A stretch of 64,000 bases of DNA from Desulfobacteraceae bacterium. GTDB taxonomy: Bacteria; Desulfobacterota; DSM-4660; Desulfatiglandales; Desulfatiglandaceae. The notes beneath the pieces were generated by a model that made no database searches, was not told the origin of the DNA, and saw only the letters and a program-made list of their open reading frames with translations. The translations under genes and the position numbers were made by a program. Where the stretch lies: assembly GCA_030613055.1 (NCBI GenBank), contig JAUWMR010000013.1, positions 1 through 64,000 of the forward strand. Direction: 5' to 3'. Positions 8,691 to 40,315 of the stretch are shown one piece after another (position 1 is the first letter of the stretch; the number at the start of each line of letters is the position of its first letter).

Positions 8691-9273
8691 TTTTTTCCTC
8701 CTTTGGTAATAATAAGATTAAGATAAAAAAATCAAAATATGGACAGTTTTTACCTCCTTTCTATTAGAGATATATTTCACAATTTATATCTGTTTTCAGC
8801 TTATATAAATATTTAAGATTTTGCAACATTGAATTTCTAAAGAATTAGAAAAGTTTTTATAGATAATGTCAAGATTTTTATACCGCAAAATCGCATCTCT
8901 AATGTGGAGTCTGCTTTCGAACCAGAGAATCAGGAGTTAGCATTTCAACTCTTTCAGATACCTACTCTTAGTTTTGCCAATTCTGCTTCGACTCAGAAAG
9001 CACAGCCCAAATTTATGAGAATCAGGAAAGGAATATTTGGATAGCTATTTCTCGTATAACCTGTCAGTTCACCCGAGCGGTGTTTCGCTGCGCTTCACGC
9101 CGGCCGATGACTTCATGGTTCGGCTTAAAATGATTGACACCATATGCATAAATGAGGCATATATGATACATATAAGAACAACATTTAATATCAATAATGA
9201 GACTTTGATCCTCAAGGGCTGAAGATAATGACTCGTAATATATTTTGTCGATTTGTGCTCTGTGGAGGGGGCT
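8691..9273. other. AT-rich intergenic, no supported gene
   Basis: A spacer between the divergent second dodecin and the LysM-SPOR gene. It must hold the promoters of both. The dodecin side is very AT-rich (about 8750-8880). I could not assign a -35/-10 pair with good spacing, and the short open frames look like chance. Confidence 0.4.
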
Positions 9274-10068
9274 ATGCGTTTTGCTGGCCGGCGTCCGGCC
9301 GGTAGTCCCTGGCTGTTAAGCCTTCTAATCGCGGTTTTTACAATCACCCTTGCCCTTGTTTTGTGGCCGAAAAGCCCTAAAGAGCAGCATTTAGAAGCTG
9401 AGAAGACCAGTGTCATTACACGGTTTAAAATACCTCAGCGCGAAAATGTACGGTCGCAAAAAGAAATCAAAATCAAGTCGCAAAAAAAGGATATACGGGG
9501 AGGCGGGACTGTTGCGCCTGAAGTAGCCTCGCTGGTTTTCCCGCCCGCTGATGAGAGGGTCGCTGAAAAGAGGGAAGGGCATTACCGGACCCGAAAGGGC
9601 GACAGCCTGCATAAAGTCTCAGGGCGCAAAGAGGTGTATGGAGACCCCCTGAAGTGGCCCAGCCTGTTTCGCCTGAATAGGGACAGGTTGACCGGAATGG
9701 GATTGACAGAGGAGATTCAGCTCAAGGAATTGCCCGAAGGAATTGATCTTCGGTTTATAACGGCTCGTGAAGCACGAAACAACTTGAGTAAACTTGGGAA
9801 AAAAGTATGGGTTGTGAATGTGCTTTCGAGCAGGACCTCAAGCAAGATCGGACCGACAGCAGTCAAACTTGTAAAAAGCGGATACCGTGTGTATATTACT
9901 GTGAGCAAGGTGAAGGAAAAGGAATGGATGAGGCTTCGTGCAGGTTTTTTCAGAAACCGGCAGGAGGCGATCTCTGGAGCAGAAAAGATTAAATCCATAC
10001 TTGGTGCGGAGGATGCCTGGGTTGTTGAGGTAGGAAAGAGGGAGCGGGCGAGATTTGGGGGATATTGA
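9274..10068 (+). CDS. Membrane-anchored LysM-like and SPOR domain protein
   Basis: About 264 residues from ATG 9274, with GGAGG at 9264-9268. An earlier GTG at 9253 lacks a site. A basic N-terminus is followed by one membrane segment (LLSLLIAVFTITLALVLW). A charged linker leads to a LysM-like segment around the RTRKGDSLHKVSG and YGDPLKWPSLFRLNRD motifs. The last 90 residues form a SPOR domain (VWVVNVLSSRTS, RLRAGFFRNRQEA), which binds denuded peptidoglycan at septa. Its likely role is in the cell envelope or division. Downstream is coaBC. Confidence 0.8.
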   Translation: MRFAGRRPAGSPWLLSLLIAVFTITLALVLWPKSPKEQHLEAEKTSVITRFKIPQRENVRSQKEIKIKSQKKDIRGGGTVAPEVASLVFPPADERVAEKREGHYRTRKGDSLHKVSGRKEVYGDPLKWPSLFRLNRDRLTGMGLTEEIQLKELPEGIDLRFITAREARNNLSKLGKKVWVVNVLSSRTSSKIGPTAVKLVKSGYRVYITVSKVKEKEWMRLRAGFFRNRQEAISGAEKIKSILGAEDAWVVEVGKRERARFGGY

Positions 10069-19892: not shown

Positions 19893-20708
19893 TTAAAAGA
19901 CTTTTCGCAGATATTCGTCCTTATTAATGGAGGAATAGGAAGAAATATCCGGGAGGTTAAGTGATTTTTTTGCAAACTCGAATACCCGGTCATAGTCAAA
20001 CCGCAATCCCATTTTATTGTAGTACTTCTCAAGGATTCTCTTCGGCCTGTAGTCGCTATATTTGCATGGAATTGAAAGAATCGGAATGCCTTTCTGACTG
20101 ATTAGTTCCGCGATATCATTGCTGTTGTATTTTATCAGCGGTCTAAAAACCGTATACCCTTCCTTCATTTTAAGTACAGGATAAAAGCGCTGGGCCGTTT
20201 GTATAAACCGGCCATCCTCTTCAACGCCTTCCTTTCTCTCAATGTCAGAAAAGATATCTGTTAGTATGTGTTCCATAGAGTAGCTTACGATATCCCAGAG
20301 GCTGTAGTTAGCTATGATAACAAAGTTCTTCAGGTCACCAGCTGATTCGCTTACAAGTGTCTTCAGGGTTTTTCTCCTGAGATTTTGACATGGAAGGCAG
20401 GGATTTGGCGCATTGTTAATATACGCATCTGTCTCTTTTAGTTCGTGCCATGTGATATTTACACCCCGTTTATGCCAGTACGATATGATCTTTTCTCTCT
20501 CTGCCTCAGTATACCTATGAACCGGATAGGCTGCGGCATGTGACTCAAAACAAAATCCGAATTCCTCTTCTGCCCGCAGGAGTAAATCCATGGCAAGAGA
20601 CGAATCTTTGCCTCCGGAAAACAATAGAAATACTTTTTTTTGAGGGAATTCCTCTAAAATGGATTCATATTCGCTTTTCCAATGAGTATAACTTATTTTT
20701 GAATTCAT
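19893..20708 (-). CDS. PP-loop ATPase (TtcA/tRNA-thiolation-like)
   Basis: About 271 residues from ATG 20708. An alternative ATG 20765 overlaps the upstream gene. It has the PP-loop LLFSGGKDSSLAM, then a paired-Cys segment (PCLPCQNLRRK) like the metal-binding Cys of TtcA/Ncs6 tRNA sulfurtransferases, and a late PCKYSDYRPKR segment. PP-loop enzymes adenylate a carbonyl or hydroxyl group for thiolation or amidation. The operon (acyltransferase, radical SAM, kinase, enolase-like) argues for small-molecule or peptide modification rather than tRNA, but this is inference. Confidence 0.75.
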   Translation of the reverse strand: MNSKISYTHWKSEYESILEEFPQKKVFLLFSGGKDSSLAMDLLLRAEEEFGFCFESHAAAYPVHRYTEAEREKIISYWHKRGVNITWHELKETDAYINNAPNPCLPCQNLRRKTLKTLVSESAGDLKNFVIIANYSLWDIVSYSMEHILTDIFSDIERKEGVEEDGRFIQTAQRFYPVLKMKEGYTVFRPLIKYNSNDIAELISQKGIPILSIPCKYSDYRPKRILEKYYNKMGLRFDYDRVFEFAKKSLNLPDISSYSSINKDEYLRKVF

Positions 20709-20725
20709 GTTTTCTGCCGTTAATA

Positions 20726-21877
20726 TCAGGGTCTCGTTATTGATATGGTGGATGAGCCATTGCATAAGCGTTCCAAGCTCTGCATATTGACTTCAACGCC
20801 CAGACCGGGGCCGTCCAAAGGTCCTGCCTCACCACCATATCCAAAAGATACATTTTCGCGTGTAATATTTTCTTTCAGAAGGAATTCATCATAAGAACCG
20901 TCATAGTACATCGCATCCCCGCAGAGAAGGCATAAGACTCTGCCGGCAGCAGACAGAATACCGGATTCGCCCAGGGTACACCCGATTTGAAAAGATAGAC
21001 CGCTTTTTCGAATGCGTTCAACCATCCTGAGCGATCTTCGGAACCCGCCGCTTCTACATAATTTGATATTTATTACCTGGTAATATCCTTCCCTGATAAT
21101 TTCTTCCACATCTTCCAGGGTTGGGGCCGACTCACAGGCCATCATCATTACATCCATGTCTTTCATTGTTGCAGCGAATTCTGTAAAACCGGGATCGGAT
21201 TTTATCATGGGCTCTTCAACAACTTTGACATTGTACGCCTGAATTAATGGTATATGTTTGAAGGCAAGGTCGCGATCCCAGACCCCGTTTGGATCTATCC
21301 TGAGTTCACATTCGCCACCGAAAATTAGGCGTGCTGTTTCTACAGCATATTTATTCTGCTTGAAATTACCACCTAACTTAATTCTAAGATGATTAATACC
21401 AAGATCTCTGATCATTTGACATATTTCAATAATTCTCTCCCTATTACCGAGAGTAATTGCGCCACCATAACATATTATGTCTGTATAGAAATCCGAAGGA
21501 AAGTATTCTATGATGGATTTGTTTTGACTTTTGCCCAGTATATCCAGTAGTGCCATCTCAATGGCACAAATTGCCGCATTATGATCCTTGCCACCGGGAA
21601 GGCTATCTATTAAGTCCCATATCTGAAAAACATCGTTTAGTTCCCATGGAAAAGAATTCCTGTTCGCAAAATGCCGGACGGTTTCCATTACATTTTCAGG
21701 TGTTTCTCCTGTAACGAACTGAACCGGCAAACCCTCACCATATCCTTTTATCCTTCCTCGATCTGAGACAACCTCTACTACGACTGTATCTGATGAGACT
21801 CCCTTTAGACGGGAAATGGAAAAATCCCCGGTAAAGGGTAGAATGATTCTGTATAGATTAATCTCTTGAATTCGCAT
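20726..21877 (-). CDS. Enolase-superfamily enzyme (muconate lactonizing / dipeptide epimerase-like)
   Basis: A 383-residue protein with an N-terminal capping domain and a TIM barrel. Barrel residues visible are the catalytic RIK in HLRIKLGGNF, metal ligand Asp in RIDPNGVWD, Glu in VVEEPM, Glu in ACESAPT, and Lys in INIKLCRSGG. This set fits the MLE subgroup (o-succinylbenzoate synthase, N-acylamino acid racemase, dipeptide epimerase). The substrate cannot be read. It starts inside the sensor kinase gene (20-bp overlap), so it is co-translated. Its stop lies just upstream of the PP-loop ATPase. Confidence 0.82.
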   Translation of the reverse strand: MRIQEINLYRIILPFTGDFSISRLKGVSSDTVVVEVVSDRGRIKGYGEGLPVQFVTGETPENVMETVRHFANRNSFPWELNDVFQIWDLIDSLPGGKDHNAAICAIEMALLDILGKSQNKSIIEYFPSDFYTDIICYGGAITLGNRERIIEICQMIRDLGINHLRIKLGGNFKQNKYAVETARLIFGGECELRIDPNGVWDRDLAFKHIPLIQAYNVKVVEEPMIKSDPGFTEFAATMKDMDVMMMACESAPTLEDVEEIIREGYYQVINIKLCRSGGFRRSLRMVERIRKSGLSFQIGCTLGESGILSAAGRVLCLLCGDAMYYDGSYDEFLLKENITRENVSFGYGGEAGPLDGPGLGVEVNMQSLERLCNGSSTISITRP

Positions 21878-23882
21878 GGTTTTTCCCTTGAACGCGGCTT
21901 AAGAGCTCGCGAGGAGGTTCATAGGGTAATGTCAGGATGAATGTTGTTCCTTCATTGACCTCGCTTTTTACTTCTATGCTCCCACCATGGTCCTGAATAT
22001 GCTGATGGGCAATAAAGAGACCGAGTCCCGTACCGCTGTGCATATTATTTTTATGCTTGGTTGTAAAATAGGGGTCGAATATTTTATTGATCATAGATTC
22101 GGGTATCCCCGGTCCATTATCTTTGATCTCGATGTGCACAGTCTTTGGGTTTTCGTTTTCAATACGGTTTTTTGTCGAAACCCGGATTTCCCCCCCTTGA
22201 GGAGTGAATTCTATAGCATTTGACAGGATATTCAGGATCACCTGTTTTATCTTTTCAGTATCCATTTTTATCTGGGCTATATCGGGATCATATTCGCGTA
22301 TTACTTCAATCTTCCTAACATTGCTCTGTGGCGAAATAAGGAGTATCATTTTGTCTATCAGACCGTGGAGGTCGTTGAATTCAAAACGTGATTCCTTCGT
22401 CTTGACCAGGTCAAGGAGTTCTGAGATGAGGCTATTTACCCTGTTAGTCTCCTCCATTGCGATTTCATGGAAGTCATTTCGGAATTCTTCATCATCGTAT
22501 TTTTTAGGCAGCAACTGGATAAATGTCCCTATTGCCGTCAGGGGATTCTTTATTTCATGGGCAAGTCTTGCAGCCAAATTGCCCAAAAAGGAGAACTTCT
22601 CAGACCTGCTCAACAGGGCATGGGATCTTTTAAGATCCTCCATCTGATCTTGCAGAGTTGTGTAAAGCCTTGCGTTTTCTATAGCAATAGCTATTTGAGG
22701 TCCAAAGATTTCAAGAATTTCACGTGTTTCCTTCGGCACACCCTTGCCGTCAACGGCATCTGTTGCAATAACCCCGATGACCTTGGATCTGGTTATCAAC
22801 GGCACAACATAAACAGACGTCGGCTTTACGTGGGTCAACATAATATTTTCTTTTCTTAGTGTGGAACTTTTTACATCAGGAACATACTCCGGTCTCCCGG
22901 TGCTAACTACCCTTACCAAGATGTTACTCACACGATCAAGAGGAACGTTATAGTCTTTGACCTCATCCGGGACATCGCCGTCCATGCCTGTGCCATGTAT
23001 GTACTCAAGACTCTTTTTGTCTTCATTCACAAGCAATATTAATGCACGGTTTATCCGGCAAACGTTGCCTAAAAGGTTCATGATAATGGTCAATAGCTTT
23101 TCTAACTCCAGTATTGATATGATGGCCTTTCCGGTTTCCTGTATGGCCATAAGCTGTTTGATTTTCTTGTTCAGTTCGACATTCAGCCGGTTAACCTCCT
23201 CATATTTATTTTTAATTATCTTTTTATCCTTCTCCATTTCTTCTATTGTTTCCATGAGTACGGACTTTGATGTATAAAACCTTGAAAAAATCTCATGAAA
23301 TCTGTTCCGGGCAGGCCATCCAAAACGGTATTCACAGTATGGCGCCCCTTCAAAGAAACAACATTCTTCTATACAGGTGGCTGGCTTCCCTCCCCAGATG
23401 ATTGGAATAAAAGAATAAATACCCTGATTATACAGGCACATGTCTTTTGATACATCCATCTGAGGATCCCAGTGTAATCTTACAACAGCCCTGTTCTTTT
23501 CGATTTTCAACAGTTCTATTTTTTTGCTCCTGTTCCACTTGTCATTTATTATCTGTGCATGTTTAAGAGCCTTTTCGGTTGACCAGAATGCCTTTACAAT
23601 TATTCTTTGAGCATAGCCTAAAGTAGTGTTTTCAATAGTGTGCCTGGCGATTTTAAAGGCAGTCATCTCATCATCAAAAAGCAATCTTGCCCTTTCCCAT
23701 AACTTGGAAACTACAGTACATGAGACCCAATTATTGGGGTCTCTTAAAAATTTTTCAGGATTGGGGAGACTATCAATTTCGGAATCAAGATCCTTAAGAA
23801 GACCGGGATAGTCACTTTTGTTGTGTTTCTTAACGTAATCAAGGATAATCTTTGAGTTAACGCAGTTTATTTCTTTTTCCAT
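21858..23882 (-). CDS. Sensor histidine kinase with V4R-like and GAF input domains
   Basis: A 674-residue cytosolic kinase. Residues about 1-190 end in a CIEECCFFEGAPYCEY motif typical of V4R-like small-molecule binding domains. A coiled coil (about 205-240) leads to a GAF domain (about 240-410). HisKA follows, with phospho-His in AARLAHEIKNPLTAIG, then a HATPase with a N box around NILSNAIEFTP, DNGPGIP and GTGLGLFIAHQ. No receiver is attached and no cognate regulator is in the operon. No membrane segment is present, so it probably senses an internal ligand, perhaps the operon product (inference). Confidence 0.87.
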   Translation of the reverse strand: MEKEINCVNSKIILDYVKKHNKSDYPGLLKDLDSEIDSLPNPEKFLRDPNNWVSCTVVSKLWERARLLFDDEMTAFKIARHTIENTTLGYAQRIIVKAFWSTEKALKHAQIINDKWNRSKKIELLKIEKNRAVVRLHWDPQMDVSKDMCLYNQGIYSFIPIIWGGKPATCIEECCFFEGAPYCEYRFGWPARNRFHEIFSRFYTSKSVLMETIEEMEKDKKIIKNKYEEVNRLNVELNKKIKQLMAIQETGKAIISILELEKLLTIIMNLLGNVCRINRALILLVNEDKKSLEYIHGTGMDGDVPDEVKDYNVPLDRVSNILVRVVSTGRPEYVPDVKSSTLRKENIMLTHVKPTSVYVVPLITRSKVIGVIATDAVDGKGVPKETREILEIFGPQIAIAIENARLYTTLQDQMEDLKRSHALLSRSEKFSFLGNLAARLAHEIKNPLTAIGTFIQLLPKKYDDEEFRNDFHEIAMEETNRVNSLISELLDLVKTKESRFEFNDLHGLIDKMILLISPQSNVRKIEVIREYDPDIAQIKMDTEKIKQVILNILSNAIEFTPQGGEIRVSTKNRIENENPKTVHIEIKDNGPGIPESMINKIFDPYFTTKHKNNMHSGTGLGLFIAHQHIQDHGGSIEVKSEVNEGTTFILTLPYEPPRELLSRVQGKNHANSRD

Positions 23883-23907
23883 GTAAGAACCTGTCCGTTA
23901 TCAGGGA

Positions 23908-25446
23908 TCAAAATTGTAAGGTGCGATGACTTCTTTGCCCAGATATCCATTTCTTATGTTTTTTAGTTATCCCGGGAACCAATTCCCTGAAAGCAACGAG
24001 GCTTTTTCCCTGAACATCAAATATTTCCCTATCGGCGTCTCTGAAACATTCATCAGGAATCATTTTATCTGATAATGCGTGTACCGGCAATCTAAAGAAA
24101 GGCATCATATTCAAAACGGTCCTTTGCATCTTTGGTGTGTTATTGGATAAACTAAAAATTTCTGTCATATAAGCAAGGACGGTTTCAAAGCGCAGATTCT
24201 TAGATGATTGCCTTACGATATTCTCTCCAAAAACGCCATTATCATCAAATACAACATCGGGTGCTGACACGGTATGGTAATAAAGCTTGGTTTTTGGATA
24301 AACCCTACATTCCCCAATTTTGAAAATGTGCCCGCCTATGCCGCTATTTTTTGATAACGCTTTAGCAAAAATGAGGCTTTTTTCAAGATCTTCTTCTGTG
24401 TCTCCCGGATAACCAGCAATCATAAAAATCGTTACTGGAATTTCATTTTTCAAGGCTTCCTTGAATATGGCAATAGTGTTGGAAACATAATATTGATAAT
24501 GATCTCTATCTCTGACCTTGCCCATCCTTTTTAAAGTGCTATAACTTGCCGATTCAAAACCGAGCGCTAACATCCCACAAACGTCCGTAATCTTAGAAAC
24601 GATTGAGGGGTCCATGACATCGCAACGAGTTTCAAAATTGATTTTCATTCCTAATGATCGAAGCAATGGAAATAGATCAAAAGATTTGAAAAGCGCATCA
24701 CTGACAAGCAGGGTATGTGCCTTAGTGTGTAGTTTTAAATTTCTCAAATCCTTTTGAATGATTTTTAAAGATACTTTTTTCCTGATCGGTCGAATAAATT
24801 CCTCCATACAGAAATTGCAGTTATAAGGGCAACCCCGGCTAAAGGCATAGGGCAAAATATCATATACGCCCGGATTCCTCAATAACTCCAGGTTGAGAAG
24901 CGCCTTGGTATTCAAATCAAAACGCGCTCCTTTCCTGGTTAGATGCACGTGTCCGTCTTTTTTCCACGCCAGGTTCGGGATATCGTCATCTCTGGGGTTT
25001 TTGCCGCGTTCTAAGCGTTTGATTATCTCAAGGGCCGGCACCTCTCCTTCGCCGATTACGATTACGTCTACTGCATGGGTTCTCGAGAATATCTCCTCAT
25101 AATAAATTGTGGGGAAGTATCCACCCAAAAAGACGAATATATCAGGATCGTGGTTTTTTATGAGATCACACAAGTGGATAGTTTCTTCTGCCTGGGCAAT
25201 AGCCGTGCATGAGATTCCAATGCCCCTTGGCTTTATTTCCGAAATCTCTTCCAAAAGTTCCTTATATATTTGTTCTTTTCCTTCCCTGGTAAGGGGTAAG
25301 CCGTAATCAGCGGATATAGAGACTATATTAATAGCGATTTCAGGCAATTTAGATTGAACAAAACTTGCTATCTCTATTAGAGGTAATGGGTAGGCGGGAA
25401 TATACATATCAATGTTTTTGGATATCGGTTCAATAAGCAAAATCAT
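23908..25446 (-). CDS. B12-binding-type radical SAM protein
   Basis: A 512-residue protein. The N-terminal 150 residues look like a cobalamin-binding domain (PAYPLPLIEIASFV, GISCTAIAQAEET, FVFLGGYFPT, VIGEGEVPALEI), although a DxHxxG cobalamin motif is not evident. The radical SAM core has the CPYNCNFC cluster motif (about 204-213), LVSDALFKS and LALGFESASYSTLKRMGK. A C-terminal extension of about 120 residues contains a Met/Phe-rich segment. Such enzymes do methyl transfers or skeletal rearrangements in lipid and natural-product pathways. The kinase gene begins 26 bases after its stop. Confidence 0.85.
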   Translation of the reverse strand: MILLIEPISKNIDMYIPAYPLPLIEIASFVQSKLPEIAINIVSISADYGLPLTREGKEQIYKELLEEISEIKPRGIGISCTAIAQAEETIHLCDLIKNHDPDIFVFLGGYFPTIYYEEIFSRTHAVDVIVIGEGEVPALEIIKRLERGKNPRDDDIPNLAWKKDGHVHLTRKGARFDLNTKALLNLELLRNPGVYDILPYAFSRGCPYNCNFCMEEFIRPIRKKVSLKIIQKDLRNLKLHTKAHTLLVSDALFKSFDLFPLLRSLGMKINFETRCDVMDPSIVSKITDVCGMLALGFESASYSTLKRMGKVRDRDHYQYYVSNTIAIFKEALKNEIPVTIFMIAGYPGDTEEDLEKSLIFAKALSKNSGIGGHIFKIGECRVYPKTKLYYHTVSAPDVVFDDNGVFGENIVRQSSKNLRFETVLAYMTEIFSLSNNTPKMQRTVLNMMPFFRLPVHALSDKMIPDECFRDADREIFDVQGKSLVAFRELVPGITKKHKKWISGQRSHRTLQF

Positions 25447-25488
25447 AGCAAATCCCTAATCGAAATCAAATTTAGCGACTGACTTATT

Positions 25489-26466
25489 TTATGAAATCCT
25501 GTTAAGCGTTGGCATTGCCAGTGAGGCGGCTTTGGGTATTTTAGCCCTCGTAATTTGAATAGATGATGTACCTATAACATGATAATTTTTCCATTGATAC
25601 CATTCTTCAGGGTAATGGAGTATGTATTGCTCTAAAGCCTTCAATATTAGTGCTCCAGCTGGCATGCCTATTAACGGCTGGAATCGCTTTTCCATGTCTT
25701 CCAGTGATTGTACAATAAATCTATATCTCTGGTTATTGTTTCGACGCATAATTCCAAGTACAATAGACGCTCCTCCCCTTTTTGACAAAACATTTATTGT
25801 CCTGTCCAGATTAATCTGCTTGCCTAAAAACTTCGTTTTTTCGCGATAGGATGGCCTCCACTCATCTATCTCATCACATTCTGTAATTACTATACGATTC
25901 TGTCTCAGGCTATTGAAAATAGCCTTCATAATATTTGATGTATTACCGGCGTCAATTATCCTTATTGCAAATTTTTCTGCTTTTTGAATTGAAAGATCGC
26001 GGAAGTGTTCAGATGAAAATTTTGCGAGAATCGTTACAGGATAATTGTTAACAGCGAGATAGCCTGGGATAAATTCAATGCCCCCGAAATGCCCGGTGAT
26101 CAACAGGACTCCTTTTCCCTTTGCAAGGCCATTCCTAATGGAAGCCATGCCTTCACTCGTCACGTGTGTTTTAAAAAAAGACCTTGATATTTCAGGTGAG
26201 CAAAAGATATTGAAGAATTTTTCGTAGTAATGGAAAAATATTCCACGAAATACCCTTCTTATAATGGATTTAATTTCAGAAGCACTGTGATGATTTAAAA
26301 ACACAGTTTTGATTGCATTTTCGATTTCCCTTTTTTCCTTTCTGTTCAAGAAAAAGTACAATTTTCCCCAAAAGAACAAATAAAAATGAGAAATTTTCCA
26401 ACTAAATATTTTATACAGGAAAAGATTAACCCGCCATTGCAAAAATGAACTCAGGCCTATTTTCAT
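25489..26466 (-). CDS. Lysophospholipid acyltransferase (LpxL/HtrB-like)
   Basis: About 325 residues from ATG 26466. A GTG at 26505 gives an unsupported 13-residue extension. The N-terminus is hydrophobic and aromatic. The acyltransferase signature GHFGGIEFIPG (catalytic His with acidic partner in the extended HxxxxE form) lies at about 125-135, followed by CDEIDEWRP and a GGASIVLGIMRR strand. LpxL-like enzymes transfer acyl chains from acyl carrier protein to lipids. It heads the five-gene minus-strand operon, suggesting the pathway product is a lipid or is acylated (inference). Confidence 0.8.
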   Translation of the reverse strand: MKIGLSSFLQWRVNLFLYKIFSWKISHFYLFFWGKLYFFLNRKEKREIENAIKTVFLNHHSASEIKSIIRRVFRGIFFHYYEKFFNIFCSPEISRSFFKTHVTSEGMASIRNGLAKGKGVLLITGHFGGIEFIPGYLAVNNYPVTILAKFSSEHFRDLSIQKAEKFAIRIIDAGNTSNIMKAIFNSLRQNRIVITECDEIDEWRPSYREKTKFLGKQINLDRTINVLSKRGGASIVLGIMRRNNNQRYRFIVQSLEDMEKRFQPLIGMPAGALILKALEQYILHYPEEWYQWKNYHVIGTSSIQITRAKIPKAASLAMPTLNRIS

Positions 26467-26891
26467 AATGATTACCCGCGATGGATATAAAGAAGGTGTA
26501 TTCACAGATAGCTTAACTTATATTTGAGATGCTTACTCAAAATCCATGCCAGGATGTGACTGAAGCGATCTGACTTCAAAAAAGGGCCGTGGGGATCTTT
26601 TATGCCGTAGATGATTGAGATTGCTTTATAGATGTTGCTAAATACGTAACAGTTCACAGGGTTCAGTCTCCGGCCTGTAGGGGCCTACGCCCCGGTGGGG
26701 GGTCAGGGAACAGGGAAAGACAATGGTCGTCCTTAGGGCTTCTGGCATGCTGAAGCAAGTTGTGAAATCGCCGCTGATCCCCGACGCCCGTGAACTGATA
26801 CCCAAATACTATACACTGCCTGGAAAAAGATGAAGATGGATGTTAGGTCTGTTAAAAGGCAGGGATAGGAATATGGAAAGTTTATGAAATA

Positions 26892-26930
26892 TGCACAAAA
26901 AACTGTGCAATTTGCACATTTTTTTGTGCA
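26892..26930 (+). promoter_or_regulatory. Double-palindrome upstream activator site 1
   Basis: Two 18-bp palindromes TGCACA-N6-TGTGCA at 26892-26909 and 26913-26930, with centres 21 bp (two helical turns) apart. The same arrangement occurs at 28830-28868 and 35537-35575. It lies about 130 bases upstream of the sigma-54 promoter of the activator gene, the usual place for an enhancer site. Confidence 0.85.
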
Positions 26931-27058: not shown

Positions 27059-27074
27059 TGGCATGAAAAATGCT
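27059..27074 (+). promoter_or_regulatory. Sigma-54 promoter for the activator gene
   Basis: TGGCATGAAAAATGCT has the invariant GG (27060-27061) and GC (27072-27073) with exactly 10 bases between, close to the TGGCAC-N5-TTGC consensus. It lies about 176 bases before the start at 27250. Together with site 1 it suggests the activator controls its own gene. Confidence 0.75.
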
Positions 27075-27249: not shown

Positions 27250-28608
27250 ATGGATAAAAAGGCTATGATTCTTGTGGTGGATGATGAACATGGTGTAAGG
27301 CAGTCATTTAACATGGTCCTGAAGGATGAATACAATGTGCTTTTGGCTGAAAATGGAAAACAGGCCATTGATATTTTTACAAAAAATGCAGTTGATTTGA
27401 TCCTGTTAGATATTCTCATTCCCGATATTAATGGCATTGATCTTTTAGAGAAACTGAAAGAAATTGATCCTAATGTGGAGATTATCATGGTGACCGCGGT
27501 CAAGGAGATTCAAACGGCGGTAAAGGCTATCAAATTAGGGGCTTACGAATATGTAATTAAGCCTTTTGTGGTTGACGATGTTTTAACCCTGATCCACCGG
27601 GCATTGGAAAAGCGCAGTCTTTTGAGGGAGGTAACCTATCTGAGGGGCGAGCTTAAAAGACATCAACCCTTTGAGAAAATGGTTGGTGAACATGAAAGCC
27701 TTCAGGCCGTGTTTGATTTAATCAGGACCATTTCCAAGAGCGACGGCGCAGTCCTGATTCAGGGAGAGAGTGGAACAGGCAAAGAACTGGTTGCCAGGGC
27801 CATACACAACTCAGTCTCCCGGAAGCACAAGCCCTTTGTGGTTATCAATTGCGCTGCCATTCCGCCAACCCTGATGGAAAGTGAGCTCTTCGGGTATAAT
27901 AAGGGGGCCTTTACGGGCGCGGCCGGGACCACAATGGGTAAACTGGAGATTGCCAATAAGGGCACGGTCTTCCTGGATGATATTGATTCTTTAGATGTCA
28001 ATATGCAGGCCAAACTGCTGAGGGCAATCCAGGAGAAAGAATTTGAAAGATTAGGGAGCACCAAGGTGATAAGGTCTGATATCCGGTTCGTGGCGGCCTC
28101 AAATAGAAGCATCAGGGAACTTATTTCGCGCGGGAAATTTCGTGAGGATCTCTATTACAGATTAAATGTTTTCCCCATCATACTTCCTCCTCTGAGAGAG
28201 AGAAAAAGCGATATCCCCCTGCTATTAAATCACTTTTTGGAACTTAATTCCAAAAAATCAGGCAAACCGGCAAAAAGGTTTTCAAAAAAGGCCGTTAACG
28301 CATTAATGAAATACAGCTGGCCGGGAAATGTAAGGGAGCTTGAAAATATGGTTGAGAGATTGACGACTATTACCAGAAAAACGGTAATCAATATCCAGGA
28401 TGTATCCGCGTTCAATATTGATTTCGGAAATATCACAAGAGGAATGAAACTCAAAGACGCGGTGAGTGCCTTTGAGAAAAATTATATCAGTGAAGTGCTT
28501 GACAATGTTGGAGGGAACAGGCGAAAAGCCGCACAGACGCTGGGTATACACCGGAATACGCTTTTTGTAAAAATGAATGAACCTGCTGACATTACAGGAG
28601 AAATATGA
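27250..28608 (+). CDS. Sigma-54-dependent response regulator (NtrC family)
   Basis: A 452-residue activator. Receiver domain: acidic pair at 11-12, phospho-Asp 54, and a K-P pair in VIKPF. The AAA+ domain has GESGTGKE (Walker A), the sigma-54 contact loop GAFTGA, GTVFLDDID (Walker B) and the REDLYYRLNVFPI segment. A Fis-type helix-turn-helix ends the protein (NRRKAAQTLGIHRNTLF). It binds enhancers and opens sigma-54 RNA polymerase promoters when phosphorylated. No kinase is adjacent. The Fis domain is the best candidate reader of the three double palindromes in this window (inference). Confidence 0.93.
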   Translation: MDKKAMILVVDDEHGVRQSFNMVLKDEYNVLLAENGKQAIDIFTKNAVDLILLDILIPDINGIDLLEKLKEIDPNVEIIMVTAVKEIQTAVKAIKLGAYEYVIKPFVVDDVLTLIHRALEKRSLLREVTYLRGELKRHQPFEKMVGEHESLQAVFDLIRTISKSDGAVLIQGESGTGKELVARAIHNSVSRKHKPFVVINCAAIPPTLMESELFGYNKGAFTGAAGTTMGKLEIANKGTVFLDDIDSLDVNMQAKLLRAIQEKEFERLGSTKVIRSDIRFVAASNRSIRELISRGKFREDLYYRLNVFPIILPPLRERKSDIPLLLNHFLELNSKKSGKPAKRFSKKAVNALMKYSWPGNVRELENMVERLTTITRKTVINIQDVSAFNIDFGNITRGMKLKDAVSAFEKNYISEVLDNVGGNRRKAAQTLGIHRNTLFVKMNEPADITGEI

Positions 28609-28829: not shown

Positions 28830-28868
28830 TGCACAAAAAACTGTGCATGATGCACAATTTTATGTGCA
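28830..28868 (+). promoter_or_regulatory. Double-palindrome upstream activator site 2
   Basis: TGCACA-N6-TGTGCA at 28830-28847 and again at 28851-28868, with centres 21 bp apart. The first half-site is identical to site 1, including its AAAAAC spacer. It lies between the activator gene and the membrane-protein cassette. Confidence 0.82.
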
Positions 28869-29044
28869 TACTTTTATTGTTCCGGCCCTCCCCCCCCTTT
28901 TTTTCTTAGCGGGTTCATATGTAAAGAAACCGTGCAATCCACGTCACCCTTCTTAACTGCATGAAATTAAACTATATCTTGGCATATCATTGTAACCTGG
29001 TTAACAGTAAACAACTTGTTTTGAAAAAAAATAAAGCAGATTCA

Positions 29045-29060
29045 TGGCATAGATATTGGA
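29045..29060 (+). promoter_or_regulatory. Possible sigma-54 promoter for the membrane/lysis-like cassette
   Basis: TGGCATAGATATTGGA keeps the -24 TGGCA and the spacing, but has GG where the invariant -12 GC is expected. It lies 178 bases after activator site 2 and 96 bases before the ATG at 29156. It is a weaker match than the other two. Confidence 0.4.
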
Positions 29061-29155
29061 TAGTATTGAGGGAAATAAACCACAACATGAATTCAATGGA
29101 TAGGGAGAGATCGATTTCCTGCATAGGAACAATTGGAATATCACGGGAGGAACAA

Positions 29156-30820
29156 ATGAAAGCTATGGGCTCCATTATCGGCTATATCTGTAAAGGCGGT
29201 TTTGTTGGTGGTTTTCTTTTAGTCATTTTAATTCTTCTTGTTCCGATAATGTGCAATGCGGATTGTGAAGGAACCAATGATTTTACCTTGCGAGTTATAC
29301 TAAAGGATTCCGTACCAGTGACCGTCCGCGACCTTGCCAGATATTTTCGCGTGATTTCCGTTCAGGATGATAGCGGGGATGCTTTAGGGTCGGACCGATC
29401 TTTGAAAATTAAGCAAGGCTACAGGCTTGAAGTTGAGGTCCGACAGGGTTTGGATATCTTCAAGTTTGCAAAACCGGTACGCGCCACCCTGTGTGCGCCA
29501 GTCTATCTGGAGAAAAAGGTAGAAGTAATAAGAGTCGCAGGTGATGACCTGGCCGGCAGGAGAGGAACTATTCGAATCGCGAAGGAAAGATCTGGTCTTG
29601 AGTTAAAAGAGGACGGGAACATTGTGAATTTGGAACATGATCGGGAGGTTCTGGATGAGAGTCTGCCTCTGATGTTTCATCAGGATATTGTTGCCTGGGC
29701 TGAAAGGATCATCGGTATGAAGCCCATTAGAAGACGGAGCTTTGAACTATTAGACCGTTGGGTGTCTGCGGGAGAGGAAGTCCGGATCAGGGTGCCCATA
29801 CGCGATTTTGACGATAAGTCTCAACTGGCGGTTGGATTCTGGACGGATCATCCTGATTCAGCTTTGGAAGAGGAAGCCTATCTGGCTGACATAACCGGCA
29901 TTGAGCCGGAAAAGGTAGGCGGCAGCGCCTATATTGTGAAGGCCAGGATGCCGTATCTCAGCAAAATAAAACATGTAGAACCCGGCTGGTACTGCCCGTA
30001 CCCTCCTAAAGTGAAAATGACGGTCACTACCAAACTGGATGAAGCCCGGATTACAGCAGAGACATTTGACCTGCGCATAACGCGGAGGGGCTGGGCCTTT
30101 GTAACCGGTTTGATCTTTTTGTTTATCGTGTTTTTTGCGCTTATGTATATAGCCAGGGATCGCAACCCCCATGTGAAAGGAACCGAGAAGTATAAAAGGT
30201 GGCGTGAGAAATGGAAAGAAGAACACAGATCGGACAGGTTTAAACGGTTTTTTTCATCACCATTTTATTTCACTGTTACGCCCATAGGAACATACAGCAT
30301 TTCAGTGACCCAGGCCCTTTTCTGGACGTTCATCATCGCATTTTCCTGTGTGTACGTGTACATGCTGAAGGCCGCATTCATCATGATTCCAGGCCAGATT
30401 TTGATCCTTTTGGGTATTACCGGCGGTACGGCGCTTGCGTCGCGTATCAACGCAGTCAGCAAAGATGTGATTCCGAACGATCTTATGAAGGAAATCAGAA
30501 AGAAACGAACCCCCAAATTGCGTGACATGATATCCATAGGCGGTCGTATGAATATATATAAATTTCAGATGATGGTTTTTACACTTGTTACCGGCATTAT
30601 TGTGGTGGCGGAGTTAATTAAGGCGTGTAATTTTCCCGAGATTCCAAATTCCCTTATCGTGCTGATGGGGGTGAGTAATACACTTTACTTAGGCAACGAA
30701 GTAACCATAGAACCAATGAAGGGACTTCGCGAAAATGTAAAGGCATATAGGAAAGAGGAAGATGAGCAAAAGCGAAATGATATAGGAGATGAAATCAAAA
30801 AAATGCTGAGCGAATATTAA
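29156..30820 (+). CDS. Membrane protein of unknown family
   Basis: About 554 residues from ATG 29156, preceded by GGGAGG (29145-29150). A longer reading from 28961 would cover the promoter region and lacks a site. A signal-like segment (GGFLLVILILLVPIMCNA) is followed by an extracytoplasmic region of about 300 residues. The membrane segments that follow are AFVTGLIFLFIVFFALMYIA, ALFWTFIIAFSCVYVYMLKA, MIPGQILILLGITGGTALAS and MVFTLVTGIIVVAELI. The tail is charged and helical. I do not recognise the family. It is first in a cassette with a lipoprotein and a muramidase. Confidence 0.75.
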   Translation: MKAMGSIIGYICKGGFVGGFLLVILILLVPIMCNADCEGTNDFTLRVILKDSVPVTVRDLARYFRVISVQDDSGDALGSDRSLKIKQGYRLEVEVRQGLDIFKFAKPVRATLCAPVYLEKKVEVIRVAGDDLAGRRGTIRIAKERSGLELKEDGNIVNLEHDREVLDESLPLMFHQDIVAWAERIIGMKPIRRRSFELLDRWVSAGEEVRIRVPIRDFDDKSQLAVGFWTDHPDSALEEEAYLADITGIEPEKVGGSAYIVKARMPYLSKIKHVEPGWYCPYPPKVKMTVTTKLDEARITAETFDLRITRRGWAFVTGLIFLFIVFFALMYIARDRNPHVKGTEKYKRWREKWKEEHRSDRFKRFFSSPFYFTVTPIGTYSISVTQALFWTFIIAFSCVYVYMLKAAFIMIPGQILILLGITGGTALASRINAVSKDVIPNDLMKEIRKKRTPKLRDMISIGGRMNIYKFQMMVFTLVTGIIVVAELIKACNFPEIPNSLIVLMGVSNTLYLGNEVTIEPMKGLRENVKAYRKEEDEQKRNDIGDEIKKMLSEY

Positions 30821-30892
30821 CTGACCAGCGGCAGCTCAACTCTGACGATGGACCCGTATAAACGGTCAGGTTGACTGATAAGGGGAAAAAGG

Positions 30893-31492
30893 ATGAATAG
30901 ACTATATTTTATAAAAACGGTTTTTGTTCTATGTTTTCTTGGCCTTTTCGTGAGTGGCTGTGCCACTCCACAAGCCGTTAAAACTCTATCAAACGAGCAA
31001 GTCAAGGCCCAGGAAAAATATCTTGAGTCCCAACGGAAATATTTTTCAATCATAGAAAATCTTGTCGAGTCTCATATCAATGTAACAGAAATATTGATAA
31101 AAGATGCGACAAAGAAAATTAATGATAAATATAAAAAAAGAGCATTGCGAAATATCGATCCATCAGATACCAAAAAAACAAAAGAAGTCCTGGATACCTT
31201 AATAGATAATGTTTTGTCTGAATATAAAACGGACCAAATTGGTCTCGCACGAGTAAAAGGATATTTGGCAGAGTTAAAACAAAAGCACAACAGCATGCTG
31301 AAAGCATATGCCACTATACTGACGGCACAGAAGAAGTTGAATGAATATATTCAACTCAAAAAAGCGGATGAGGCTGTCTTTGACCAACTACTGGGAATAA
31401 TCGGAATTGAAAGGGAAAATATTTCTGAGGCAATGACATCCATTACAAAGATATACAAAGAAATTGAGAGATTCACAAAGGGAGGGAAATAA
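30893..31492 (+). CDS. Coiled-coil lipoprotein of unknown function
   Basis: A 199-residue protein with a lipoprotein signal: basic start, hydrophobic core FVLCFLGLF and lipobox VSGC at about residues 21-24. The mature part is long, Lys/Glu-rich helix, probably coiled coil (ESQRKYFSIIENLVESH onward). No enzyme motif is visible. It follows the membrane protein and directly precedes a small gene (2-base gap). A helical outer-membrane lipoprotein beside a muramidase recalls o-spanin-like parts of lysis cassettes, but the resemblance is only architectural. Confidence 0.75.
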   Translation: MNRLYFIKTVFVLCFLGLFVSGCATPQAVKTLSNEQVKAQEKYLESQRKYFSIIENLVESHINVTEILIKDATKKINDKYKKRALRNIDPSDTKKTKEVLDTLIDNVLSEYKTDQIGLARVKGYLAELKQKHNSMLKAYATILTAQKKLNEYIQLKKADEAVFDQLLGIIGIERENISEAMTSITKIYKEIERFTKGGK

Positions 31493-31494
31493 AT

Positions 31495-31809
31495 ATGACA
31501 ATCCAGGAAATCCACGAACAATTAACAAATACACTAAGTAAGCTTGAACATGCTGATATAGATGATGACTTGAAACTTGATCTGGAAATATTGTATCTTC
31601 AACTCAAGAAGCAACTGCTTTTAGGTGGTTTTGATCCACTAAAGGAGCTTAACGCCGTAACTGTTGCAGATGTCTCCAAGCTACCGGAGCTGGTGGAGCA
31701 AGTCGATTCAGTGATCAGGGATGAAAAAAGGCGTGTGGAACTCATAAAGAAGATAATATCAACAGCGAAAATTGGCCTTAAAGCCGCCGGACTTCCGATC
31801 CCGTTATGA
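31495..31809 (+). CDS. Small helical protein of unknown function
   Basis: This 104-residue protein has no signal peptide and is predicted mostly helical (TIQEIHEQLTNTLSKLEHAD start, then DLKLDLEILYLQLKKQLLL). The C-terminus is weakly hydrophobic (IISTAKIGLKAAGLPIPL). A GGAGGG site lies inside the end of the lipoprotein gene. I do not recognise it. Its place suggests it works with the lipoprotein and muramidase. Confidence 0.65.
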   Translation: MTIQEIHEQLTNTLSKLEHADIDDDLKLDLEILYLQLKKQLLLGGFDPLKELNAVTVADVSKLPELVEQVDSVIRDEKRRVELIKKIISTAKIGLKAAGLPIPL

Positions 31810-31915
31810 GCAAACAGGTGAAGTTCGCAACTAAGCCGATTTCCTACCTTCCGGCTCGCATCGAAGTAAACGGCGGCTTTTTTCTTCATATTGGAAACAC
31901 ATGATGGGGTTTAAA

Positions 31916-32503
31916 ATGGCGAATTTTAATGATGCATTTGAAAAGACGGCGGCTATTGAAGGGGGATACATCTTTGACCCTGACGACGCGGGTGGTGAGA
32001 CATACAAGGGTATCTCACGGAGATTCAATCCCTTGTGGAAAGGTTGGGAAATAATTGACGATTTAAAACAGACTAACAGGAGAAAGAGGAAATTTGACAA
32101 GCTTTTTGAGCAGGACGAAATCCTTCAGGACAAAGTACGGTTGTCTTACAAGCAGCTTTACTGGGACAGATTCTGGGGTGACGAGATTCCGCAACAGGAA
32201 ATAGCAGAGGAACTGTTTGACACGGCCGTGAACATGGGGGTACATAGAGCCGTAGGCTTTCTGCAGGAGAGCCTGAATCTTCTAAACCGGAATCAGAAGA
32301 ACTACAGAGATATTGTTCAAGATGGGCTTTTCGGTAGAAAGACACTAAAGGCATTAGAAGCCTATCTCAAGATTGATAAACTAATGTACCTGATCAAGAT
32401 AATGAACATACTGCAAGGGATGCATTACATCGAATATATGAGAAAAAATCCGGTTCAGGAAAAATACGCAAGAGGCTGGTTAAAGAGGGTAAAGATCAAA
32501 TAA
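31916..32503 (+). CDS. GH108 family N-acetylmuramidase (endolysin/TtsA-like)
   Basis: About 195 residues from ATG 31916. ATG 31901 is an alternative. It shows the GH108 catalytic motif EGGYIFDPDDAGGETYKGI, with the Glu in EGGY as acid. A C-terminal peptidoglycan-binding helix bundle follows (DTAVNMGVHRAVGFLQ, DGLFGRKTLKAL). It cleaves the glycan strands of peptidoglycan. There is no signal peptide, so it needs a membrane partner to reach the wall, as phage endolysins or TtsA do. The membrane protein two genes upstream could fill that role (inference). Confidence 0.87.
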   Translation: MANFNDAFEKTAAIEGGYIFDPDDAGGETYKGISRRFNPLWKGWEIIDDLKQTNRRKRKFDKLFEQDEILQDKVRLSYKQLYWDRFWGDEIPQQEIAEELFDTAVNMGVHRAVGFLQESLNLLNRNQKNYRDIVQDGLFGRKTLKALEAYLKIDKLMYLIKIMNILQGMHYIEYMRKNPVQEKYARGWLKRVKIK

Positions 32504-35536: not shown

Positions 35537-35575
35537 TGCACAGAAAAATGTGCATCATGCACAATATTTTGTGCA
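35537..35575 (+). promoter_or_regulatory. Double-palindrome upstream activator site 3
   Basis: TGCACA-N6-TGTGCA at 35537-35554 and 35558-35575, with the same 3-base gap and 21-bp centre spacing as sites 1 and 2. It is 53 bases upstream of a canonical sigma-54 promoter. Confidence 0.85.
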
Positions 35576-35626: not shown

Positions 35627-35642
35627 TGGCATGAGAATTGCT
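35627..35642 (+). promoter_or_regulatory. Sigma-54 promoter for the lone receiver gene
   Basis: TGGCATGAGAATTGCT: GG at 35628-35629 and GC at 35640-35641 with N10 between. This is an almost perfect sigma-54 consensus. It lies about 115 bases upstream of ATG 35758. Confidence 0.82.
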
Positions 35643-35757: not shown

Positions 35758-36213
35758 ATGGACAATTTAAATAGCAGTCAGCCTGTAGTCGAGGCAAAGA
35801 GCACAATACAAGGGCCAGAGCGTGAAGACAGCTATGAATTTTACATGGGAAAAGAGACCCTGCTCCTTGTGGATGATGAAAATATGATTCTTGGCGTTGG
35901 CAGTGAGATGCTTAAAGAATTAGGTTATGTAGTCCTGATAGCAAGAAACGGAAAAGAGGCCGTTGAAATATACAGGACAAATCAGGGCAAAATTAATATG
36001 GTCATCCTGGATATGATCATGCCGGGCATGGGAGGAGGGGAGACCTACGACAAGATTAAGGAAATAAATCCCAATATTAAGGTGTTGCTTACAAGTGGTT
36101 ACGATATCGATGGAGAGGCAACCGAGATATTAGGGCGGGGTTGCACCGGCTTTATTCAAAAACCATTTGATATGAAGATGCTGTCGCAAAAGTTGAGAGA
36201 GATCCTCGATTAG
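35758..36213 (+). CDS. Single-domain response regulator
   Basis: A 151-residue receiver with a 30-residue N-terminal tail: VDDEN at 39-43, phospho-Asp 85 in VILDMIMPG, LLTSGY and Lys in FIQKPF. There is no output domain. AAGGGGTAA precedes the ATG. Its stop touches the stop of the convergent cheA-like gene with no gap. A lone receiver beside CheA could be the CheY of this system, made only when the sigma-54 activator is on (inference). Confidence 0.9.
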   Translation: MDNLNSSQPVVEAKSTIQGPEREDSYEFYMGKETLLLVDDENMILGVGSEMLKELGYVVLIARNGKEAVEIYRTNQGKINMVILDMIMPGMGGGETYDKIKEINPNIKVLLTSGYDIDGEATEILGRGCTGFIQKPFDMKMLSQKLREILD

Positions 36214-37788
36214 TCATGGAAGGCTTTCAATGTCAAGGAGTATGGATATTTCTCCGTTTTCCATGATTCCAACTCCGGAGAAGAGTTTCGATTTACCTAA
36301 CAGTTCGCCTACGGGCATGACCATCATCTGCCTGTTGCCGATAATGTCGCCCACTAATATTTTAAGCTCTCCTCCATTATCGCTCTTTATATGTTTTTCT
36401 CCGGGATGCCTGATTGTAAGGATATGATGCTGATTTTTCAGGTTATTTTTTATGCCCAGTATTCCTTTTAGATCGTAGTAAGAGTTATTGTCATCGGGAG
36501 AAATACTATCAGTCTGTTCGATGGACATAACGTTTAGTGTAGGAATTGAGAGGATATAATCACCTAAATGAAAGGTTATCGTGTAGATTATTGAAAGGGT
36601 GACCGGCAGTTTTATTGTGAATTCGGTTCCTTTTGAGGCCTCCGAACTAATTGTCAGGGCCCCACCTAAATACTCTATGGCCTGTGAGACAACGTTCATC
36701 CCTATACCTCTGCCGGCCATATCTGAGGTGGTTACAGCCGAAGAAAAGTCAGGGCTGAGAATTGTATCGAACAATTCTTCTTGAGACATCCGGGCAATCT
36801 CATCCTCGCGTAAAGATTTCTTATCACTGAGATATTTAGCAATGGCCACCCTGTCAATGCCCCTGCCGTCATCGCTTAATTTGATGGTAAGGCTGTCTCC
36901 TTTACGGGTAGCCTCTAAGGTGATTTTGCCCACAGGGCTTTTTCCCAGCTCTTCACGTTCCTTTGGCGACTCGATTCCATGGGCGATACAATTTCTGAAG
37001 ATATGAACGAAAGGTTCCCTGAGACGCTCAAATAAGGTAATGTCTGCTTCCAGTTGGCCTCCTATGACCTCGAAATCTATCTCCTTTTCATTTTCCTTAG
37101 CCAGATTTCTAATTGTCTTGACAAAGATATCTGCAAAGTCTGTCACTGAAACAAGACGTAACTGAGCCAGACGAAAATGGAGCCCCTTCAACATGGATGT
37201 GTAATCGTCGATCCAGTTTCTGAGACCCCCTGATATTTGTTCAAGTGAGAGAGGCGGCAGGGACTTTTCCAGGAGCATAATTTCCTGGGATAGGCCAAGG
37301 AGCTCCTCAATCAGGGAATATTTCACACGTACATAATCAATATTCTCAGCGCGAGGATGGATATGTGTTGGAAGGGATTTCTTGCGATTGCGCCCACTTG
37401 CATCTTGCTCAGGGCCTTTTCTGAATTGAGAAATCAGGGAATCGTACCACCTCTGGTCTTCAGCGGTACTGATTTCCCCCATTTGCGCCACTAAAAGCCT
37501 GAGCAGGTCTCCACCCTGGAAAATAGACTGGATAGCGCCTGGGGTAGCATCAATTGTACCCTGCTGAAACTCTTTGCACCAGTTTTCAACAGCATGGCTT
37601 AAGACGGAAATTTTTTCCAGGCTGAGTGCCTTGGCCATCCCCTTTATAGAGTGTACCTTACCGTGAATATCCGCCCACAATCCTAAATCGGAAGGATTTT
37701 TTTCAACCCTCATCAAGAGCCTGTCAAGTTCCTTAAGGTATTTATCAGACTCCTGGCTGAATATCTTTTGGTATTTCTGAAGGTCCAT
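36214..37788 (-). CDS. CheA-type chemotaxis histidine kinase
   Basis: A 524-residue kinase with an N-terminal Hpt domain, phospho-His 46 in VHSIKGMA. A linker and dimer region (about 160-230) follow. The HATPase has FVHIFRNCIAHGIESPKERE (read in parts), SDDGRGID and GRGIGMNVV. The C-terminus is a CheW-like domain from about 390. The CheY-binding P2 domain is not evident and no receiver is attached. Its start lies within the end of the CheW gene (44-base overlap), indicating tight coupling with the CheW and MCP genes upstream. Confidence 0.9.
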   Translation of the reverse strand: MDLQKYQKIFSQESDKYLKELDRLLMRVEKNPSDLGLWADIHGKVHSIKGMAKALSLEKISVLSHAVENWCKEFQQGTIDATPGAIQSIFQGGDLLRLLVAQMGEISTAEDQRWYDSLISQFRKGPEQDASGRNRKKSLPTHIHPRAENIDYVRVKYSLIEELLGLSQEIMLLEKSLPPLSLEQISGGLRNWIDDYTSMLKGLHFRLAQLRLVSVTDFADIFVKTIRNLAKENEKEIDFEVIGGQLEADITLFERLREPFVHIFRNCIAHGIESPKEREELGKSPVGKITLEATRKGDSLTIKLSDDGRGIDRVAIAKYLSDKKSLREDEIARMSQEELFDTILSPDFSSAVTTSDMAGRGIGMNVVSQAIEYLGGALTISSEASKGTEFTIKLPVTLSIIYTITFHLGDYILSIPTLNVMSIEQTDSISPDDNNSYYDLKGILGIKNNLKNQHHILTIRHPGEKHIKSDNGGELKILVGDIIGNRQMMVMPVGELLGKSKLFSGVGIMENGEISILLDIESLP

Positions 37789-40299: not shown

Positions 40300-40315
40300 T
40301 TGCCTTACCTCAAGG

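Follow-up and report, generated by a model that had tools for sequence, protein, structure and literature searches.

The operon at positions 19,893 to 26,466 of a 64,000-nucleotide stretch of DNA from a Desulfobacteraceae bacterium (GenBank assembly GCA_030613055.1, contig JAUWMR010000013.1; the whole stretch is called the window below) raises the question of what an acyltransferase, a radical SAM enzyme, an enolase-superfamily enzyme, and a PP-loop ATPase have to do with the sensor kinase encoded among them. The window is contig 43 of genome G000, which comprises 4.26 Mb in 97 contigs; in our comparison, G-numbers denote genomes and L-numbers denote loci. We found that the enzymes belong to a module conserved in a group of uncultured bacteria of the sulfate-reducer type, and we are confident that this module and the regulator encoded next to it form one functional unit. 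Our favored explanation, to which as a whole we give somewhat less than an even chance, is that the operon produces an acylated small molecule sensed by its own cytosolic V4R kinase, in a positive-feedback circuit of the autoinducer type.

A conserved enzyme pair with a kinase and a divergent regulator

The list of open reading frames shows five co-oriented genes on the minus strand. The first encodes an LpxL/HtrB-like acyltransferase (25489..26466; the open reading frame reaches 26505, and Met14 at 26466 is the likely start) and is followed by a gene for a B12-binding/radical SAM protein (23908..25446), recognized by its Pfam domains and an invariant CxxxCxxC motif. Next comes a histidine kinase without a receiver (21858..23882), in which a V4R-fold sensor (residues about 1 to 190) precedes a coiled coil and GAF, HisKA, and HATPase domains. 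The last two genes encode an enolase-superfamily (MLE/dipeptide-epimerase-like) enzyme (20726..21877), assigned by Pfam and carrying a variant active site, and a PP-loop ATPase (19893..20708), whose open reading frame extends to 20765 and whose probable start, Met20 at 20708, matches that of its relatives. A first-pass annotation of this DNA had described five genes with short gaps or overlaps, and the gaps of 42 bp (acyltransferase/radical SAM) and 25 bp (radical SAM/kinase) and the kinase/enolase overlap of exactly 20 bp (21858-21877) bear this out. Its family labels also held, with Pfam confirming all but the PP-loop protein, which is sub-threshold in Pfam and was placed by fold. The five genes are thus real, and the unit also includes parts that the first-pass annotation did not contain: a divergent sigma54-dependent response regulator gene (27250..28608, plus strand; REC-AAA-Fis by Pfam) that faces away from the operon, a set of palindromes, and a regulon. 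The regulator gene is the divergent neighbor of the operon in most relatives too, and its product is presumed to be the partner of the kinase.

The same gene order recurs in tens of loci. A search with the radical SAM protein returned orthologues at 52 to 86% identity (L012-L038), nearly all in metagenome-assembled genomes labeled Deltaproteobacteria/Desulfobacterales and one labeled Omnitrophota; generic B12/radical SAM proteins of Luteibacter, Dyella, and others (L039-L091, about 25% identity) were left out. Almost every sufficiently long locus has the order divergent regulator, acyltransferase, radical SAM, kinase, enolase, and the flanking contexts differ. The PP-loop gene is the operon's last gene in the window and in L018, L020, L024, L025, and L028. 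In L154-L157, L193, and L201, acyltransferase, kinase, enolase, and PP-loop genes occur without the radical SAM gene; L190, L191, L199, and L200 lack both the radical SAM and PP-loop genes; L150-L152 and L158 have the kinase and regulator alone; and in one genus the enolase and PP-loop genes are located apart from the kinase and regulator. Among 85 genomes of the window's order, the radical SAM gene is present in 11 and the enolase gene in 33. Given its absence from L154-L157, L190, L193, and L199-L201, we rejected the radical SAM protein as an essential member. The conserved core is the LpxL-like acyltransferase and the enolase, usually joined to the V4R kinase and the regulator, and the radical SAM and PP-loop proteins are modular add-ons. 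The five genes are therefore not an invariant pathway, and the two add-ons prove interchangeable, with one, the other, both, or neither present; scattering in relatives, which the first-pass annotation had named as a sign against a common pathway, is seen for these two genes only.

Retrieval by the enolase alone added 23 loci (L184-L195 and L199-L209, of which L202 and L203 repeat L034 and L021), and an LpxL-like gene is present in 17 and a V4R-type kinase gene in 16 of them. An alternative kinase of about 915 residues occurs in L186, L192, and L194, with PAS and receiver domains in L186 and L192; Pfam V4R scores above its cut-off in these two (3e-10 in L192), and the L194 kinase matches the sensor profile at 78 bits. 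Distant LpxL-enolase pairs, with enolases about 30% identical to that of the window, are found in L204-L209, and three of them adjoin a V4R kinase. Collectively, the pair adjoins V4R kinases of two architectures in several families of the phylum. The sensor was found once in the window's own genome and matches 0 to 2 kinases in each related genome, so that this repeated adjacency is not a matter of chance. One could still suppose that the genes are chance or lineage-specific neighbors without a common function, as the independent coming and going of the radical SAM and PP-loop genes would allow and as L012/L109, where the radical SAM gene and the acyltransferase-kinase genes lie on different contigs, might suggest. 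However, the same order is kept across many genera in differing flanking contexts and LpxL-enolase pairs occur in several families, which makes this supposition extremely improbable.

A few loci depart from the common layout. L014, L016, and L017 are rearranged, with molybdopterin oxidoreductase, Fe-S, and NAD-binding protein genes upstream of the radical SAM gene and the enolase gene inverted, and L014 encodes a hybrid V4R-type kinase with a fused receiver. L019 comes from a record labeled Candidatus Omnitrophota yet has a Desulfobacterota-type locus with 66% radical SAM identity, pointing to mis-binning or transfer.

The kinase and its V4R-fold sensor

Pfam recognizes the GAF, HisKA, and HATPase domains of the kinase. 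Its N terminus has no Pfam match in the window protein; of 27 relatives, 6 give a weak V4R match, with 9e-4 as the best value. A PDB profile search with the sensor gave no match, and the assignment came instead from fold comparison: the AlphaFold model (predicted local distance difference test [pLDDT] score of 85) matches H-NOX, PoxR (5fru/5frz), and TRAPP chains in Foldseek, with E values of 1e-6 to 1e-3. As modeled, the N terminus has the V4R superfamily fold, in agreement with the label "V4R-like" that the first-pass annotation had given it. C149, E172, and C175 are invariant in the 27 sensors, and C183 is nearly so. The spacing of C149/C175/C183 equals that of the zinc-site cysteines C151/C177/C185 of DmpR, and the glutamate lies three residues before the second cysteine, compared with five for Glu172 of DmpR (PMC7264223). 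The pattern is that expected of a V4R-type zinc site made of three cysteines and one glutamate. No membrane segment was recognized on reading the kinase sequence, without a predictor run, and the ligand is therefore taken to be sensed in the cytosol.

Which ligand the sensor binds is less readily read from the alignment. No histidine is invariant in the 27 sensors and no YxSxR motif was seen in their alignment, so that neither H-NOX-like haem binding nor a phenol-anchoring histidine is supported. The H-NOX haem sensor was rejected on these grounds, although H-NOX ranks first in Foldseek. We also rejected a phenol sensor, as the conserved His/Trp dyad was not found and the invariant tryptophan stands at another spacing.

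V4R kinases paired with sigma54 regulators are already known as two-component systems. PcrS/PcrR of Aromatoleum aromaticum EbN1, which responds to p-cresol (PMC10715001), shares with our system a V4R-sensor histidine kinase paired with a sigma54-dependent regulator. On this precedent, our kinase could, like PcrS, DmpR, and MopR, respond to a hydrophobic or aromatic compound from outside the cell, and the enzymes would simply be part of the regulon's output, serving to modify or detoxify that compound or to remodel the envelope in response. The V4R fold and the zinc-site cysteine spacing are common to phenol sensors, many relatives come from sediments, and genomes where no such enzymes accompany the kinase and regulator nonetheless contain many sites. 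In contrast, the PcrS gene is surrounded by genes for p-cresol degradation, and PcrS retains the histidine and tryptophan that anchor phenol, whereas here the dyad was not recognized and no aromatic-degradation genes were recognized in the predicted regulon or the neighborhood. The V4R-GAF architecture, the large palindrome regulon, and the biosynthetic enzymes in the same operon also set our system apart from PcrS. DmpR, PoxR, and MopR share the sensor fold (PoxR 5fru/5frz) and the spacing of the three zinc-site cysteines, but they are one-component regulators, and the sensor sequence is too distant for a PDB profile match. Finally, two different V4R kinases accompany the LpxL-enolase pair, which suggests that the sensor is tied specifically to these enzymes. 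We consider sensing of an external compound a minority possibility, at about one chance in four.

Palindromic sites and the predicted regulon

The regulator has an AAA sigma54-interaction domain (Pfam), and its predicted distal sites and -24/-12 promoters would place it in the sigma54 enhancer-binding class. Between its gene and the operon lie tandem copies of the 18-bp palindrome TGCACA-N6-TGTGCA (26892..26930, made up of 26892-26909 and 26913-26930), 21 bp apart as elsewhere in the window, where none would be expected. Sigma54-like -24/-12 sites point from this region toward the LpxL operon (TGGCATGGATTTTGAG, 26536..26551, minus strand; same-direction sites in relatives are of the TTTGGCACG..TTTTTGA type) and toward the regulator gene (TGGCATGAAAAATGCT, 27059..27074, plus strand). 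The palindrome is found in the same intergenic region in almost all relatives examined, often in two copies 21 to 22 bp apart. The window's own genome has the exact pattern 17 times in nine places, compared with 0 for the reversed control; pairs with 21-bp spacing account for seven of the nine places, and five of these pairs have a sigma54-like site that starts 191 to 202 bp past the second palindrome. When the related genomes are included, a sigma54-like site lies 160 to 220 bp from 14 of 31 site clusters, whereas 4.6% of randomly chosen positions have one at that distance (binomial, 2.7e-11), and across the 85 genomes of the order a mean of 5.9 sites in the 32 with a regulator orthologue compares with 0.34 in the other 53 (Mann-Whitney, 1.8e-11); since the genomes are related these P values are optimistic, but the effect is nonetheless large. 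From the presence and distribution of the sites in these sequences, we infer that the regulator binds them. One genome, G009 (L165-L167, L171, and L172), has tandem palindromes 20 bp apart by housekeeping-looking genes, with no sigma54-like site at the usual distance, and these could be repeats or reflect a different use of the site.

We likewise infer direct regulation, through the palindromes, of the operons that adjoin them. In the window's own genome the predicted targets include the LpxL operon and the regulator gene themselves. A second tandem pair (28830..28868), with a sigma54-like site at 29045-29060 (plus strand), precedes a predicted regulon operon at 28961..32503 (plus strand) that encodes a 619-residue membrane protein, whose true start is probably downstream of 29045, a lipoprotein, a 104-residue protein, and a GH108/PG_binding_3 muramidase-like protein. 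A third pair (35537..35575) is followed by a sigma54-like site at 35627-35642 (plus strand) before a REC-domain gene (35758-36213), also a predicted target. Further predicted targets are a GAF-adenylate cyclase gene followed by a kinase gene (L133), a LuxR/VpsT-like regulator and a rhodanese (L135), a HEAT-repeat protein and a giant repeat protein (L136), and the type II secretion genes gspC and gspD (L137). In relatives a cyclase gene (L163) and a GH108 gene (L164) again adjoin sites, the GH108-like gene of L164 following the regulator gene and palindromes; other site-adjoining genes there encode ComEA-like HHH, cyclic nucleotide-binding, LysM, and patatin proteins. The kinase and the divergent regulator thus appear to control far more than the LpxL operon. 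Adjoining the third pair, a run of minus-strand genes (36214-46583) encodes CheA-, CheW-, and MCP-like proteins, REC proteins, and a 795-residue PilB/GspE-like ATPase; judged from translations, with no family search, it resembles a gene cluster for chemosensory type IV pili or for secretion.

The breadth of this regulon bears on two further explanations. In the first, the enzymes would make a structural envelope lipid or lipopeptide, and the kinase would monitor the lipid or a precursor and adjust its supply along with secretion and surface genes, for homeostasis and not for communication between cells. Envelope lipids are the usual substrates of LpxL family acyltransferases; type II secretion genes, the muramidase-like protein, the lipoprotein, and surface proteins are among the predicted targets; and one fold match of the sensor is a TRAPP subunit to which palmitate is covalently bound (6aq3). 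However, the unit has no phospholipid, 3-deoxy-D-manno-oct-2-ulosonic acid/lipid A, or glycosyltransferase genes, and its patchy occurrence among close relatives, as counted above, is ill suited to an essential lipid; we rate this explanation as unlikely, on a par with the sensing of an external compound. In the second, the enzymes would constitute a small natural-product cluster for an antibiotic, siderophore, or cofactor, with the kinase as an ordinary pathway switch and not a sensor of the product. The modular tailoring, by a radical SAM or a PP-loop enzyme and in L013, L019, and L034 by an extra B12/radical SAM enzyme, resembles diversification, but the regulator sites precede many unrelated operons, which exceeds the role of a pathway switch, and the unit contains no nonribosomal peptide synthetase, polyketide synthase, or export genes. 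This second explanation appears improbable.

The enzymes and a putative acylated signal

If the operon instead makes a signal for its own kinase, the acyltransferase would transfer a fatty acyl group from acyl carrier protein onto a small acceptor. The protein matches Pfam Lip_A_acyltrans (6.5e-14; 52 bits against a cut-off of 22), and its HX4E catalytic motif (HFGGIE in the window) is conserved in 22 aligned relatives. We rejected lipid A LpxL proper, as the NCBIfam score is far below its cut-off. The radical SAM protein, with Pfam B12-binding (8.9e-15) and Radical_SAM (5.8e-12) domains and an invariant CxxxCxxC at C206-C210-C213, falls by sequence into the B12-dependent radical SAM class; no subfamily could be assigned, the best NCBIfam match being PhpK-like (72 bits; cut-off, 600). 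The PP-loop protein is below all curated cut-offs (ATP_bind_3, 5.5e-5), but it has an SGGKDSS motif and a CxxC (C123 and C126) plus C234, the pattern of TtuA/NcsA-like [4Fe-4S] sulfurtransferases, and the top fold matches of its predicted model, of modest confidence (pLDDT, 67), are TtuA, NcsA, and TilS. The radical SAM enzyme, the PP-loop enzyme, or both would decorate the product, the latter probably by inserting sulfur. No NCBIfam cut-off for a named pathway was reached by the operon enzymes or the response regulator among the matches listed, and the pathway is as unassigned as the first-pass annotation had it.

The enolase-superfamily enzyme (Pfam MR_MLE_C, 6.8e-30; all NCBIfam scores far below their cut-offs) would rearrange or dehydrate the carboxylate-bearing part of the molecule. 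Its active site in the window consists of K167, D195, E221, C248, and K272. The strand-2 lysine (K167) is kept in all compared enolases but one, and the strand-6 lysine is replaced by arginine in most family members, near and distant. A strand-6 lysine together with cysteine in place of aspartate as the third metal ligand is found in the window, L156, L157, L187, and L192, and L186 has this cysteine with arginine on strand 6. Decay of the window enzyme was rejected: the same cysteine in five other loci (L156, L157, L186, L187, and L192) indicates that it belongs to a coherent subtype. L-Ala-D/L-Glu (dipeptide) epimerases and N-succinylamino-acid racemases have two catalytic lysines, on strands 2 and 6, and Asp-Glu-Asp metal ligands, a signature that we did not find in the family. 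The strand-6 arginine and the cysteine-ligand subtype argue against simple two-base epimerization and favor a one-base reaction such as dehydration or cyclization for the family, leaving little support for the epimerization first proposed; for the window copy, either one-base or two-base chemistry is conceivable. Given the chemistry of these enzymes and the recurrence beside the locus of M20-type hydrolases (N-acyl amino acid hydrolase families), in two forms, an acylated amino-acid-like molecule is our leading guess at the product, and no more than that.

In the proposed circuit, the V4R-fold domain of the kinase would detect this hydrophobic product inside the cell, and the kinase would phosphorylate the divergent regulator. 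The regulator would then bind the tandem palindromes and raise expression of its own gene and the operon, closing a positive-feedback loop, and of a regulon of type II secretion, adenylate cyclase, LuxR/VpsT-like regulator, and surface protein genes. Feedback through the V4R domain, suggested by the first-pass annotation, gains strength from the two V4R kinase architectures beside the LpxL-enolase pair and from the predicted sites in the operon's own promoter region. Several observations weigh against the circuit. The window enolase is without one canonical metal ligand (Cys248 for Asp); the locus has neither an exporter nor a dedicated carrier; a sigma54-like site at the usual distance is missing from about half of the site clusters; and, as the His/Trp dyad is not evident, the sequence does not reveal the class of ligand. 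The step from operon product to kinase ligand is the most conjectural of all. In addition, G066, G068, and G074 have the kinase and regulator with many sites and without the enzymes nearby, and L204, L206, and L207 have the LpxL-enolase pair without a nearby kinase; neither part strictly needs the other.

Autoinducer circuits that work through kinases include the LuxO-type relay and the diffusible signal factor system RpfF/RpfC. Synthase genes beside a kinase, a sigma54 regulator or kinase relay, predicted positive feedback, and a secretion and surface regulon liken our system to these, but it has no known synthase family (LuxI, LuxS, CqsA, or RpfF), its V4R sensor is cytosolic, and its signal is putative. 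In a Geobacillus pathway, N-succinylamino-acid racemase works with a GNAT succinyltransferase and an M20 desuccinylase. An acyltransferase, an MLE-type enolase enzyme, and an M20 hydrolase likewise share one neighborhood here, but the acyltransferase is LpxL-like, the second catalytic lysine is mostly arginine, and the M20 gene is only a frequent neighbor. The PP-loop protein resembles the [4Fe-4S] thiolases TtuA, NcsA, and TtcA in its motifs, three cysteines, and top fold matches, but it is below curated cut-offs and is tied to the enolase and not to tRNA genes. We did not find these enzymes combined with the palindrome regulon and the arginine-type enolase in curated families or in the open-access papers searched, whose listed titles and abstract openings held nothing relevant on the gene set or on V4R with quorum sensing. 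To our knowledge, an LpxL-like acyltransferase and an unusual enolase have not been linked to signaling as a synthase family.

More generally, an LpxL-like acyltransferase and an arginine-type enolase, sometimes aided by a radical SAM or thiolase tailoring enzyme, may make a family of acylated signals for a new class of cell-cell or self-signaling systems in Desulfobacterota. Cytosolic V4R kinases would read these signals and, through sigma54, turn on secretion and surface genes, and variants of the system would exist in several families of the phylum; we regard this as doubtful but conceivable. If true, it would give abundant, almost uncultured sediment bacteria dedicated chemical signaling built on that synthase family. 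Even without signaling, the locus offers a precise, testable regulon (an 18-bp palindrome, sigma54 promoters, and named targets). It also reveals an enolase-superfamily group that had not been assigned before, in which the second catalytic lysine has given way to arginine, a change useful for assigning chemistry.

Several loci vary the enzyme set itself. L034 has a second B12/radical SAM gene (8351-9937; PhpK-like, 320 bits, cut-off 600) between the LpxL-like and usual radical SAM genes, and L013 (938-2311) and L019 (3131-4504) have an extra one in the same place on the opposite strand, with a DUF4070 match in L013. In L184 (5001-8120) and L185 (8074-11343) the PP-loop gene is flanked by two different enolase-superfamily genes, the second with a strand-6 lysine, and genes for cysteine desulfurase and IscU-like proteins, named from their translations, are nearby. 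In L195 (9184-11465) the gene next to a distant enolase homologue encodes a WbuX-like PP-loop protein, which scores slightly under the cut-off of the N-acetyl sugar amidotransferase family, so that the enolase/PP-loop pairing recurs there with a different PP-loop family.

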